This document shows, one piece after another, positions 37,178-54,663 of a stretch of 64,000 nucleotides of DNA (position 1 is the stretch's first letter; each line of letters starts with the position of its first letter). The stretch covers positions 248,001-312,000 of the forward strand of contig DATAUW010000041.1 in the NCBI GenBank assembly GCA_036268055.1, in the 5' to 3' direction. The notes below the pieces were generated by a model, which saw nothing but the letters and a program-made list of their open reading frames with translations, was not told the origin of the DNA and ran no database searches. The stretch comes from Verrucomicrobiia bacterium. Its GTDB lineage: Bacteria; Verrucomicrobiota; Verrucomicrobiia; Limisphaerales; Pedosphaeraceae. The translations under genes were made by a program, and so were the position numbers.

Positions 37178-37299
37178 ATCTCATTAAGAGTGGTTGAGGG
37201 ACTGGCCCGATGAAACCACGGCAACCGATTGAAGCGCGATCTTCAATGACCAGGTGCCAATTCCAGCTCGAACCTTAGCCGGTTCGGGAAAAGATGAGA
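37178..37299 (+). promoter_or_regulatory. SAM-I (S-box) riboswitch
   Basis: The leader has the S-box consensus: P1 5' strand tctcat (37179-37184) pairs with atgaga (37294-37299); then gttgagggactggcccgatg and aaaccacggcaacc, the invariant kink-turn/P2 part; P3 attgaag/cttcaat (37229-37248); the conserved aggtgccaattcc; and P4 cgaacc/ggttcg (37269-37286). A TTGACA box lies at 37126-37131, without a clear -10. The aptamer precedes a threonine-synthase-like gene by about 85 bases. SAM-I switches usually turn expression off when adenosylmethionine is plentiful. Confidence 0.95.
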
Positions 37300-37354
37300 A
37301 GAGTGCGCACGTTTTATCCTCTTCTCATCCCAATGAGCAGGGGATTTTTTATTT
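37293..37354 (+). terminator. Riboswitch expression platform: alternate antiterminator and terminator hairpins
   Basis: Two exclusive hairpins are visible. One pairs gatgagaagag (37293-37303) with ctcttctcatc (37319-37329), using the P1 3' strand. The other pairs atccc (37327-37331) with gggat (37341-37345), followed by tttttattt. If P1 forms with bound SAM, the first is broken and the second, short terminator can form; this predicts SAM-dependent repression. The terminator stem is short, so termination may be partial, or control may be at translation. Confidence 0.6.
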
Positions 37355-46700: not shown

Positions 46701-47237
46701 TCACTTTTCACCATGCGGTTTTAATTTCCTTGCCACGTTCTTTAGCGCAAAAACACGGCTCACCAAATCAAATGCCAAACCCACCAGCAAGGCGGCTACG
46801 CAGCCGAGGGTTACGGCGAGGACGCGGTCCATTGAGCCGGACCATACGTGGGGTTCGCTGCTGAGGGTGACAATGACGACGGCGGCGTAGGCGGGGCGGA
46901 TGGCGTCGTGGAGTTTTGCGGCGTAACAGATCATGCCGGTGGCGATGACGCCGATGGCCATGGCGGCGATGTTGTGCGCGGTGAAGGCGATCATGAGGGC
47001 GCCGACGAAGGCGCCGATGAGGTTGGCCACGACGCGGGTGAGGGATAACCCTAGCGAGGGATGCAGTTTCGGCTGGGTGACGATGACGGCGGAGACGGGC
47101 GCCCAGAGTCCGCCGGGAAGGTGAAAGAGGTCGAACGCGGCGACGGCGACGAGGGCGGATACGGCGGCTTTGCTGGCGAAGATGAAGCCTTCGAGGGCGG
47201 TGATTTTTTCGGTTTTTGGGGTGGCGGGCGGTTTCAT
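46701..47237 (-). CDS. FUSC-family membrane protein
   Basis: The 178-residue protein has about five to six membrane segments and starts MKPPATPKTEKITALEGFIF. The blocks ALVAVAAFDLFHLPGGLWAP and VSAVIVTQPKLHPSLGLSLT are typical of the FUSC/aromatic-acid exporter half-domain. It is short compared with AaeB or YccS (about 650-700), so it is a minimal form. The open frame continues upstream through the 180-bp repeats to 48140, but that is non-coding repeat read-through. Confidence 0.82.
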   Translation of the reverse strand: MKPPATPKTEKITALEGFIFASKAAVSALVAVAAFDLFHLPGGLWAPVSAVIVTQPKLHPSLGLSLTRVVANLIGAFVGALMIAFTAHNIAAMAIGVIATGMICYAAKLHDAIRPAYAAVVIVTLSSEPHVWSGSMDRVLAVTLGCVAALLVGLAFDLVSRVFALKNVARKLKPHGEK

Positions 47238-47380: not shown

Positions 47381-47410
47381 GGAGTGCGATGGGTTGGTTG
47401 GTGTGGAGGG

Positions 47411-48120
47411 ACGAAGGATGGTGTCGGTCAGGGTCGGATGGTTCTTTCGTCCCTGAAGGGACTTGGGGTTGATGGGGTGAAAACCCAGCAATAAATTGCT
47501 GGGCTAATATCTGTCGTCCCTGCGGGACTGCGGACGGCGGAGCGGCAACGCCCTGCCATTTTGGCCTACGGGAGTTTGTTGGTTTGGATGGACGAAGGAT
47601 GGCGTTTGCCGGGTTGGATGGTTCTTTCGTCCCTGTAGGGACTTGGATTGATGGGGTGAAAACCCAGCAATGAATTGCTGGGCTAATATCTGTCGTCCCT
47701 GCGGGACTACGGGCGGCTGCGCGGCGACGCCCTGCCATTTTGGCCTGCGGGAGTTTGTTGGTTTGGATGGACGAAGGATGGCGTTCGCCGGGTTGGATGG
47801 TTCTTTCGTCCCTGAAGGGACTTGGGTTGATGGGATGAAAACCCAGCAATAAATTGCTGGGCAAATTTCTGTCGTCCCTGCGGGACTGCGGGCGGCGGCG
47901 CGGCAACGCCCTGCCATTTTGGTCTGCGGCAGTTTGTTGGTTTGGATGGAGGAAGGATGGCGTTGGTCGGGGTCGGATGGTTCTTTCGTCCCTGTAGGGA
48001 CTTGGGTTGAAGGGATGAAAACCCAGCAATGAATTGCTGGGCAAATTTCTGTCGTCCCTGCGGGACTTTGGACGGGGGCGCGGCAACGCAGCCTTACCAT
48101 TTTGGCCTGTGGCAGGTGGA
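47411..48120. repeat. Tandem array of four ~180-bp units with conserved hairpins
   Basis: Four head-to-tail units start at 47411, 47592, 47771 and about 47950, so the period is 179-181 bases. Each unit has three hairpins: gtccctgaagggac or gtccctgtagggac; cccagcaataaattgctggg or its g variant; and gtccctgcgggac. The first two hairpin loops alternate (units 1 and 3 alike, 2 and 4 alike) while the stems never change. The fourth unit has a longer, divergent end. The array lies in the 1040-base gap between FUSC and purM; it reads openly on the minus strand, but as repeat read-through. Confidence 0.9.
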
Positions 48121-48277: not shown

Positions 48278-49342
48278 ATGAAACAAAAAGCTTATGCTCG
48301 CGCTGGTGTGGATATTGATCTGGGTAATCGGGTGAAGGCCACGTTGCCGCAACTGCTGGCGTCCACGCATCGGCCCGGGGTGCTGGGCAAGGTGGGCGGA
48401 TTCGGCGGGCTTTTCCAACTGGATACGCGGAAGTATCGGGAGCCGGTGCTGGTCTCGAGCGCGGATGGGGTGGGGACGAAGTTGAAGCTGGCTTTCGCAA
48501 TGAATCGGCATGACACGATCGGCGAGGATCTGGTGAATCATTGTGTAGATGATATCGCGGTGCTGGGGGCGGAGCCGCTGTTTTTTTTGGATTATATCGG
48601 GACGGGGAAGTTGAAGCCGGAGGTGTTCACGGAGTTGATTTCAGGGTTTGCGCGGGGTTGCGCGGCGAATGGTTGCGCGCTGATCGGCGGGGAGACGGCG
48701 CAGATGCCGGGGTTTTATCAGCCGGGTGAGTATGATGTGAGCGGGACGATCGTGGGGGTGGTGGAGAAGTCGGAGATGCTGGATGGCCGGGGCATTCGCC
48801 CGGGGGATGTGGTGCTGGGGCTGGCATCAAGCGGGTTGCACACGAATGGTTATTCGCTGGCGCGGAAGATTTTTTTCGAGGAGCTGGGGCTGACGCCGAA
48901 GAGCCGGGTGGCGGAGTTGAATAATACGATCGGGGCGGAGTTGTTGAGGGTGCATGTGAGTTATGGGCCGCTGGTGCAGAAGCTGATCAAGCGTTTTAAT
49001 GGGACGGGGAAGGCGAAGCGTAAGGCGCGGGTGATCAAGGGGTTGGCGCATATCACGGGCGGGGGTTTCGTGGATAATATTCCGCGGGTGTTGCCGGTGC
49101 GTTGCGATGTGGTGGTTTACGCGGGATCGTGGGAGATGTTGCCGATTTTCAAGATGATCCGGGAGCGGGGCGGCGTGCCGGAGGGGGAATTGTATCAGGT
49201 GTTCAACATGGGGATCGGCATGACGATCATTGTTCCAAGGGAGAGCGCGGATGGGGTGTTGAAATTTATCCGCGCGCAGAAACAAATGGCGTGGCAAATC
49301 GGTGAGGTCGTTAAGGGGACGGGCCGCGCAAGGGTGGTTTGA
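48278..49342 (+). CDS. purM: Phosphoribosylformylglycinamidine cyclo-ligase (AIR synthetase)
   Basis: The 354-residue enzyme closes the imidazole ring in purine synthesis with ATP. Clear family blocks are YARAGVDIDLGNRVKATLPQ, VLVSSADGVGTKLKLAFAMN, DDIAVLGAEPLFFLDYIGTG, the GGETAQMPGFYQPGEYDVSG motif and the HITGGGFVDNIPRVLP block. The start is the ATG that opens MKQKAYARAG. Codon use is shifted to G-ending codons (gtgctgggg) compared with most genes of the window, and plus-strand G richness also covers the opposite-strand FUSC gene, so the shift is regional. No other pur gene is adjacent. Confidence 0.96.
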   Translation: MKQKAYARAGVDIDLGNRVKATLPQLLASTHRPGVLGKVGGFGGLFQLDTRKYREPVLVSSADGVGTKLKLAFAMNRHDTIGEDLVNHCVDDIAVLGAEPLFFLDYIGTGKLKPEVFTELISGFARGCAANGCALIGGETAQMPGFYQPGEYDVSGTIVGVVEKSEMLDGRGIRPGDVVLGLASSGLHTNGYSLARKIFFEELGLTPKSRVAELNNTIGAELLRVHVSYGPLVQKLIKRFNGTGKAKRKARVIKGLAHITGGGFVDNIPRVLPVRCDVVVYAGSWEMLPIFKMIRERGGVPEGELYQVFNMGIGMTIIVPRESADGVLKFIRAQKQMAWQIGEVVKGTGRARVV

Positions 49343-52911: not shown

Positions 52912-54663
52912 ATGAAAGGAATGCTGTTGAGTGCGCTGTTGTCAGCCGCGATGTGGTTCACGCCGGGCGCGCATTCGGAATCGCTGGGCATCATGGTGCC
53001 AGCTTATTTTTCCCCTTCGTCCGGTTATTGGAGTTCGATGAACTACGCGGCGTCGCGCGTCCCATTGATCGCCATCATGAATCCGGACAACGGCCCCGGA
53101 ACTTCGCCCAGCAGCAGTTACGTAAATGTGCTGGCGCAGTTGCATTCCTCTGGCGGCAAGATCACCGGCTACATCTACACCTCCTACGGCGCGCGCGCGC
53201 TGGCGGACGTCGAAGCGGATATTGATCGCTACCTGGCCTGGTACGCCGTGGATGGTTTTTTCGTTGACGAAATGACCAGCGACGCCGGGAGCACGGACGT
53301 TAATTACTACGCGACGCTCTATCAGTATATAAAAGCGAAGGGCACGAATTACAGCGTCACCGCCAATCCCGGCGTCAACGCTCCTGAAAGCTACATCACC
53401 ACCCCAGTCGCTGACACTTTGATGATTTTTGAGAACGACGGTTCCAAGTATCCCGCGTTCGCCCCGTCGAGTTGGGTCGCCAAATATTCACCCGACCATT
53501 TTGTTCATCTTCCCTACAACGCAACCAACACCGCCACGCTCTCAAATTTTGTGGCTCTGGCTGTGAATCGAAATGCCGGCTGGATTTACATCAGCGATCT
53601 TTCTGTCTATAGCAAGTTGCCGACGTATTGGACGAATGAAGTGCTCATGGCGCAGGCTTTCAACCAGGAAAAGCTCTCGCCTTTTATACTCACTTCCGGC
53701 CAGCCAGCCAGCCAGGTTGCCGGCACGGGCGACTCCGCGACGTTTACCGTTGCTGCTTTTGGCTCGCCCCTGCCCGCTTATCAATGGTTTTATGGGACCA
53801 ACGCCATCACCACGGCGACCAACGCCTCATACACCATTGCCTCCGTTCAAGCCGCCAATGCCGGTTATTACGATGTCCAAATTGAAAATTCCAACGGCTT
53901 CGCCATCAGCCGCGAGGCTTCACTCATAGTCAGCAATGGTCCCAGCTCCTATCGAAAAATCATCCTTGACGGCTCTTTTAATGATTGGACCGGTCTGGCT
54001 CCGGTTTATACCGCCGCCATCGGGCCAGCCACGACAATCCAATATGAGAACATCTACCTCGCCAATGACGAAAGCAATTTGTACATCCGCGTAACCCTCT
54101 ATTCGCCGCGGACCAATGCGTTTGCCAATTCGTATGATAACATTTTCATTGATGCCGACGATGATGCTTCGACGGGCTATCAAGTCGAGGGCATCGGTTC
54201 ATCCCTGCTGATACAATCGGGAAACGGTTATCAGGAAAAAAACGGAGGCTTCAACGAAGGCACTGTCAATAACCTGGGTTGGACCATTGCCCGATCCGCC
54301 GATGAGACGGATTGCGAATTGGCCGTTTCCCGCAACGCCGCTTACGCCGCCGATGGCAGCAGCATTTTTTCCGGCAACAAAATAGCGCTCTTGTTTCAGG
54401 GAGATGACGCCAGCCACGACAATGTTGAAGACGCGCCTCCATCCGGCGGCATCGCTTATTCCTTTGCCACATCGCCAACGGTGCTGCCACCGCTTTCCAT
54501 CAGTTGCGCGGCAGGAATCATGACCATAACCTGGTCTGGTTTGGGCACGCTGCAAACCTGCAATTCGATCACCGGTAACAGTGTCTGGACCAATATCACC
54601 GGCGCGGCCAGTCCTTACGTTGCGCCCATCGCCGGCTCACAATTTTTCCGGCTCGTTCAATGA
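52912..54663 (+). CDS. Secreted spherulin-4 family protein with Ig-like and CBM9-like domains
   Basis: The 583-residue product starts at 52912 with a signal peptide (MKGMLLSALLSAAMWFTPGA); the frame is open to 52801 but that part has no signal. The first domain (residues about 24-275) is a spherulin-4-like TIM-barrel: SLGIMVPAYFSPSSGYWSSM, VDGFFVDEMTSDAGSTDVNY and ADTLMIFENDGSKYPAFAPS. Then an Ig-like repeat (PAYQWFYGTNAITTATNASY), a CBM9-like domain (DGSFNDWTGLAPVYTAAI) with FIDADDDASTGYQV, and a final short beta domain ending FRLVQ. Spherulin-4 relatives are probably glycoside hydrolases or galactosaminidase-like enzymes; the activity here is unknown. Confidence 0.83.
   Translation: MKGMLLSALLSAAMWFTPGAHSESLGIMVPAYFSPSSGYWSSMNYAASRVPLIAIMNPDNGPGTSPSSSYVNVLAQLHSSGGKITGYIYTSYGARALADVEADIDRYLAWYAVDGFFVDEMTSDAGSTDVNYYATLYQYIKAKGTNYSVTANPGVNAPESYITTPVADTLMIFENDGSKYPAFAPSSWVAKYSPDHFVHLPYNATNTATLSNFVALAVNRNAGWIYISDLSVYSKLPTYWTNEVLMAQAFNQEKLSPFILTSGQPASQVAGTGDSATFTVAAFGSPLPAYQWFYGTNAITTATNASYTIASVQAANAGYYDVQIENSNGFAISREASLIVSNGPSSYRKIILDGSFNDWTGLAPVYTAAIGPATTIQYENIYLANDESNLYIRVTLYSPRTNAFANSYDNIFIDADDDASTGYQVEGIGSSLLIQSGNGYQEKNGGFNEGTVNNLGWTIARSADETDCELAVSRNAAYAADGSSIFSGNKIALLFQGDDASHDNVEDAPPSGGIAYSFATSPTVLPPLSISCAAGIMTITWSGLGTLQTCNSITGNSVWTNITGAASPYVAPIAGSQFFRLVQ

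Follow-up and report, generated by a model that had tools for sequence, protein, structure and literature searches.

REPs with their transposases are among the closest described systems for the repeat studied here. In such REPtrons (TnpA_REP, RAYT), two of many hairpin repeats stand beside a Y1 gene and the others are dispersed, with separate enzymes having separate repeat families in one genome. TIRtrons (TIRYT) have long inverted repeats, with a GGGGWSAS motif as a further trait, flanking a tyrosine transposase gene; according to excerpts from Di Nocera et al. (2013, PMC3733652), some of these inverted repeats are dispersed in the genome. The same excerpts describe CGTC-tagged REPs, with CG(T/C)C at the hairpin foot, stems of 8-9 bp, loops of 4-5 and mostly a CCA tail, as having no transposase association. 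As reported in part of PMC8266576, the IS608 transposase contacts a loop T and TnpA_REP enzymes cut at CT. In the survey by Quentin et al. (2018, PMC6006769), Table 1 gives TnpA_Y1 subclass 1.2 the motifs DH[IV]H, WQ and Y---Q--HH and a length of about 148 aa, and records no REP for it; excerpts from its text add low copy number and a specific C-terminal domain among the traits, and assign none of 26 TIRYTs to 1.2, with 20 of them in subclass 2.1 and 6 in 2.2 and 2.5.

RF01687, the ‘Acido-Lenti-1 RNA’, belongs to the Rfam class ‘Gene; sRNA’, as a candidate sRNA to which no function has been assigned. Weinberg et al. (2010, PMC2864571, table in excerpt) mark it RNA ‘y’ and cis-reg ‘n’, with Acidobacteria and Lentisphaerae as taxa. 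According to excerpts from a 2026 paper (PMC13298647), RF01687 copies downstream of two Tannerella proteases were suggested to be regulatory, with no mobile-element signs there. A transposase link is absent from the excerpts of the Acido-Lenti-1 literature examined, and in the searchable part of the open-licence PMC literature no paper was recognised that connects Acido-Lenti-1 to a transposase or a repeat to subclass 1.2.

The window analysed here is a stretch of 64,000 nucleotides (bases 248001-312000 of contig C41, in a draft genome of 5.1 Mb in 41 contigs). It contains a tandem array of four units of about 179 bp on the plus strand, which TRF places at 47393-48109 (period 179, 4.0 copies, 91% matches, score 1125). 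An earlier note on this DNA had described such a four-unit array; the array itself is real, with its start at 47393 rather than 47411 and its end at 48109 rather than 48120. As that note had also claimed, the same three hairpins are present in every unit. Unit 1 has its element at 47445-47529 (RF01687 at 47484-47529, 56.5 bits; also supported by the fold), with hairpins HP1 at 47449-47462, HP2 at 47484-47503 and HP3 at 47516-47528. The elements of units 2, 3 and 4 lie at 47625-47708 (RF01687 at 47663-47708, 59.6 bits), 47804-47887 (47842-47887, 48.1 bits) and 47984-48067 (48022-48067, 51.2 bits), all on the plus strand like unit 1. Units 1 to 3 are additionally matched by R1, a covariance model with rough E-values that was derived from 56 copies in the window's genome, excluding the pair at the transposase described below. 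As single-stranded DNA, the plus strand of each unit folds better than 200 of 200 shuffles (z -2.7 to -3.5).

Both neighbouring genes lie outside the element. On the left, a FUSC_2-like membrane protein is encoded at 46701-47236 on the minus strand (PF13515, E 1.9e-14), its start codon being our choice within a longer frame; on the right, AIR synthase (purM) is encoded at 48278-49342 on the plus strand (PF00586, PF02769). Of 40 genomes, our own included, 38 yielded a purM orthologue. The element beside purM was absent from the 29 relatives' loci scanned (E<=0.1), so that only our own locus has it; a FUSC-like gene adjoins purM in none of these 29, and the gene order differs, so none of these loci can serve as an exact empty site. 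ARAGORN found no tRNA in the window. The sole other match in an Rfam search of the window, besides RF01687, is a SAM riboswitch (RF00162) at 37178-37300 on the plus strand with 80.8 bits.

The comparison of the units supports the earlier note's view that they did not arise by a single simple duplication. The HP1 loop base alternates A, T, A, T across units 1-4 and the HP2 loop base A, G, A, G, both as the earlier note had it, and its further site is GGGCTAATAT in units 1-2 and GGGCAAATTT in units 3-4. A third split sets units 1 and 4 against units 2 and 3 at two alignment columns (75 and 82). Since these three splits conflict, sequence has been exchanged between units or has changed in parallel. 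Unit 1 differs from units 2-4 at 40-44 positions, mostly in the spacer, and units 2-4 differ among themselves at 12-18. Single units were found elsewhere when searched for: the whole of unit 4, spacer included, has a solo near-copy on contig C34 (locus L206; 92.8% over 181 bp, 14 differences).

Every unit belongs to the RF01687 family. The four matches reach 48.1-59.6 bits versus a cut-off of 37, with E-values of 8.5e-8 to 6.6e-11, and are full-length to the model. The Rfam model spans HP2 and HP3 only, whereas the element here has HP1 as an additional upstream hairpin. At about 85 nt, the element consists of HP1, HP2 and HP3, with a variable linker of about 20 nt between the first two. HP1 has the stem GTCCC..GGGAC, which HP3 resembles, both with 5 bp; HP2 has the stem CCCAGCAAT..ATTGCTGGG, mostly with CTAA directly after it. 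The hairpin foot is a C plus G[TC]CC, and a canonical GTAG REP was rejected on this sequence.

Conservation of the stems, which the earlier note had suspected, is evident within the genome as well as across phyla. In 56 distinct copies of the window's own genome the hairpins are conserved and the linker is variable; 99.4% of stem cells are paired, and 17 cells carry double-sided changes versus 2.5 in shuffles. AGCAAT/ATTGCT versus AGCCAT/ATGGCT is one compensatory example. Across phyla (141 distinct matches at the named loci introduced below, the best 80 of 580), the paired share of stem cells is 97.5%, and 18 of 18 pairs are altered on both sides (555 cells versus 147 in shuffles), in an alignment that was fitted to the structure and is biased towards pairing. 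Several unpaired letters are kept as well, counting one match per named locus: the C preceding HP1 in 50 of 53, T as the first base of the HP2 loop in 44 of 45 and of the HP3 loop in 48 of 52, and CTA 3' of HP2 with its C in 49 of 52, T in 49 of 53 and A in 47 of 53.

The genome holds at least 118 RF01687 copies at E<=0.001, 59 per strand, at least 114 of them over the cut-off; these are lower bounds, as 150 of 1333 candidates were scored. A pattern search of the genome gave 108 copies versus 0 in the control. Among the at least 118 copies, 25 lie within 500 bp of another copy, and spacings of up to 1000 bp comprise 18 same-strand versus two opposite-strand pairs. A contig start is no more than 600 bp away from 13 of them, which are spread over 12 of the 41 contigs. 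In 29 of the 118 copies listed, the RF01687 match is preceded on its own strand by a second repeat, B, whose start lies 92-97 nt upstream (60-140 nt in 30 of 118). Larger composites of repeat B and the Acido-Lenti-1 element therefore seem to spread too.

Of five Y1_Tnp matches found in the genome, four are short genes and the fifth is a domain within a longer frame. The short gene at C11:182161-182601 sits between two RF01687 copies, both of which point outward. Its 147-aa product is a HUH Y1 transposase (Pfam Y1_Tnp, E 3.9e-31), for which the nearest solved relative by sequence is the IS200/IS605 enzyme IS608 TnpA of subclass 1.1 (PDB 2a6m, E 1.4e-13). Its motifs are DHVH, WQ and YIQTQQEHH; as these and the length agree with the survey table, it is assigned to TnpA_Y1 subclass 1.2. 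The enzyme passes the NCBIfam IS200 model (86.1 bits versus 55), and identity with IS200/IS605 subclass 1.1 was rejected because of Y---Q--HH and WQ. Three further subclass-1.2 transposases lie on C6, on C10 and at C11:235206 (L032, L034, L033), each beside a palindromic repeat family of its own (B, C, D). All three have Y---Q--HH, and WQ is present in two and replaced by WG in L033; they are 34-38% identical to the product of C11:182161-182601, so that the four short genes are divergent. Pattern searches of the genome counted 64 copies of family B, 10 of C and 17 of D, compared with 0, 0 and 1 for the reversed patterns. Next to its own transposase on C6, family D also forms a tandem, in three steps of 226-227 bp.

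The link between repeat and transposase recurs in other genomes. Homologues of the enzyme occur at E<=1e-20 in 58 of 288 genomes from the phylum, and RF01687 was detected in 53 of these 58 versus 29 of the 230 others (82 in total), in a scan that scored at most 20 candidates per genome under stricter filters than the own-genome scan; related genomes are not independent in this count, which includes host relatedness. In the 29 genomes with RF01687 and no subclass-1.2 match at this threshold (e.g., G285, G197 and G278), contigs may be missing, the enzyme may be more distant or the repeats may be orphaned. At 30 subclass-1.2 loci of the phylum, taken among many more matches, RF01687 was found at 14 and not at 16 (E<=0.01), and no other Rfam family was found at these 30 loci at that threshold. 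R1 was found at 17 of 29 phylum loci (E<=0.01).

Wider sampling came from the named loci, the best 80 of 580 relatives, scanned with 14 proteins (A1) that were chosen as best matches to the C11 enzyme and not by their flanks. Taxa in their record titles include Verrucomicrobia, Planctomycetes, Acidobacteria, Chloroflexi, Calditrichaceae, Nitrospirae, Zixiibacteriota, Deltaproteobacteria, Bacteroidetes, Cloacimonetes and Lentisphaerae, and many of the records are metagenome bins. The subclass-1.2 motif pattern is present at 74 of these 80 and at 28 of the 30 phylum loci. RF01687 was found at 56 of the best 80 at E<=0.01 (18, 13, 17 and 8 in batches of 20) and not at 24. It lies within 350 bp of the gene at 54, on both sides at 37 and outward on both sides at 31. 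R1 gave 51 of 80 at E<=0.01, with 50 near the gene, 35 on both sides and 32 outward. Taking both models, one or the other is found within 350 bp of the gene at 62 of the best 80 loci and neither at 18; both sides are found by one of the two models at 45. By orientation, RF01687 matches at the named loci comprise 39 on the minus and 11 on the plus strand upstream, and 55 on the plus and 7 on the minus strand downstream; flanking copies are thus mostly outward but not all. Spacing is tight: among the matches listed, six upstream R1 copies stop 11 bp short of the start of the protein match, and a gap of 38-45 bp after its end is common for downstream copies.

Repeat and enzyme also vary together. 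Their divergences correlate with a Mantel r of 0.38 for 41 downstream copies and 0.42 for 32 upstream copies (0 of 2000 permutations in either case), values that include host relatedness. The two flanking copies of one locus differ at 0.27 per site versus 0.46 between loci (31 loci).

The element was not found at control loci of other transposases at the thresholds used. At class-2 RAYT loci of the same 288 genomes, RF01687 was found at 0 of 20 (20 of the 30 RAYT loci) and R1 at 0 of 30 at E<=0.1; at IS200 loci of the phylum, unlike the subclass-1.2 loci, R1 was found at 0 of 25 at E<=0.01, with one weak match (L299, E 0.052). Five of an original 30 IS200 loci (L310-L314), a lower score group whose places are subclass-1.2 genes, had been removed. 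By motif, an IS200-like pattern is seen at 16 of the 25 IS200 loci and no pattern at the other 9; among the 30 RAYT loci, one shows a subclass-1.2 pattern somewhere in its stretch. A class-2 RAYT or an IS200 enzyme as cognate of the element was rejected on these controls. A model-free test counted flanks as similar above the 99% level of mismatched flanks, set per group, and could use 26 of 29 phylum, 72 of 80 named, 26 of 30 RAYT and 16 of 25 IS200 loci. Inverted flanks were found at 16 of 26 phylum and 53 of 72 named subclass-1.2 loci, at 17 of 26 RAYT loci and at 0 of 16 IS200 loci; direct similarity was found at 7 of 26, 27 of 72, 21 of 26 and 1 of 16, respectively. Since inverted flanks also occur at RAYT loci, whose own REPs or TIRs have been published, they are not by themselves special to subclass 1.2. 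Among the subclass-1.2 loci missed by both models, 4 of 8 phylum and 11 of 16 named loci have inverted flanks, so many of them seem to have another repeat.

The units are best explained as REP-like, non-autonomous single-stranded DNA mobile elements of the RF01687 family, with a subclass-1.2 TnpA_Y1 as cognate enzyme, which have been tandemly amplified here. We put the probability of this reading at about 0.82. Its demonstrated part comprises the family identity, the three-hairpin compensatory structure, the dispersal, the bracketing of the gene in many phyla and the sequence correlation of repeat and transposase. Of the options offered in the earlier note, namely an RNA, a protein-binding site or a mobile unit, the last is now best supported, owing to the at least 118 dispersed copies, the solo unit on C34 and the outward copies at the transposase gene here and in other phyla. 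That note had set against its view units confined to one place with random stem changes; neither was found.

Mechanistically, the two outward-facing copies would be the long inverted ends of the enzyme gene, and the solo copies around the genome would be non-autonomous units. The subclass-1.2 enzyme may bind the hairpins on single-stranded DNA, read the conserved unpaired letters and cut beside the hairpins, thereby copying or moving the elements. By analogy with TnpA_REP, the CT after the hairpins is a candidate cut site. The array in the window would reflect local tandem amplification of the element, with exchange among the units.

An RNA would explain part of the data. The element would then be a genuine structured sRNA or RNA regulator in many copies, of which those near a transposase regulate that gene; this agrees with the Rfam class and with the ‘y’ for RNA and ‘n’ for cis-reg in the excerpted table of Weinberg et al., and compensatory stem changes suit an RNA as well as single-stranded DNA. 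However, outward pairs flank one transposase subclass in many phyla and none were found at the RAYT or IS200 controls, a single genome has at least 118 copies, and one genome with four such transposases has as many repeat families. This weakens the RNA reading, which we consider unlikely. Less likely still are former transposase ends that now have a host role, as a DNA-protein binding site, in transcription end or in mRNA stability. Such roles have been proposed for REPs (PMC3733652, in excerpt) and agree with hairpins that are kept while the linker varies in the 56 copies, but recognition by a transposase predicts identical conservation. An assembly artefact is the least probable account of the array. 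Copies near the start of 12 of the 41 contigs indicate that the assembly is fragile around the family; nevertheless, units 2-4 differ from each other at 12-18 positions, and the family occurs at more than 100 other places in the genome and, within the phylum, in 82 of 288 genomes.

REP-like mobile DNA, as favoured here, is close to several known systems. Like REPs in REPtrons, the element is a many-copy hairpin repeat with two copies beside a Y1 gene and others dispersed, and separate enzymes have separate repeat families in the genome. It differs in having three hairpins, in the absence of a GT[AG]G foot 5' of the hairpin, in clusters that are mostly head-to-tail rather than the inverted pairs of BIMEs and REPINs, and in an enzyme of subclass 1.2 (Y---Q--HH) instead of class 2 (Y--NP). 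As it fails the GTAG foot and the inverted pairs, the element is not filed as a canonical REP and is placed with the REPtron/TIRtron kind as a variant. With TIRtrons it shares long inverted repeats flanking a tyrosine transposase gene, although the surveyed TIRYTs are of other subclasses. The foot resembles that of the CGTC-tagged REPs, from which the element differs by the 5-bp stems of HP1 and HP3 and by its transposase association.

The nature of the RF01687 family has probably been misassigned, the family being a REP-like DNA element of subclass-1.2 Y1 transposases. A broader proposal, for which we see even odds, is that subclass-1.2 transposases whose inverted ends are triple hairpins constitute a distinct and widespread branch of single-stranded DNA mobile elements with its own recognition code, that RF01687 is a single-stranded DNA substrate and not an RNA, and that two systems per genome can fuse their repeats into co-spreading composites. 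The code would consist of the C before HP1, the T opening the HP2 and HP3 loops and the CTA after HP2, replacing GTAG. Annotations of bacterial genomes treat RF01687 as a non-coding RNA; if the family is transposase-linked DNA, regulatory inferences such as the one in Tannerella need re-examination. The element also offers a candidate substrate for subclass 1.2, recorded without a REP in the survey table, and the question is now testable with one purified protein and one oligonucleotide.

The fifth Y1_Tnp match (residues 344-459, E 1e-7) is in frame within an alanyl-tRNA synthetase (L035 472-3351; C19 at about 53441-53791). The frame matches tRNA-synt_2c at E 1e-180, with tRNA_SAD downstream, and inverted repeats are visible by eye on both sides of the domain, near 1374 and 2000. 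From its sequence, this appears to be an in-frame, intein-like transposon insertion that leaves alaS open. Several RAYT-type matches also occur in open frames of about 850-1370 aa, a length well above that of a transposase, in other genomes of the phylum (e.g., G038:C3:90241, G068:C112:23201, G237:C66:7368, G268:C8:49282, G268:C19:25453 and G242:C46:3217), and in-frame insertion of RAYT-type genes into other genes may be recurrent there.
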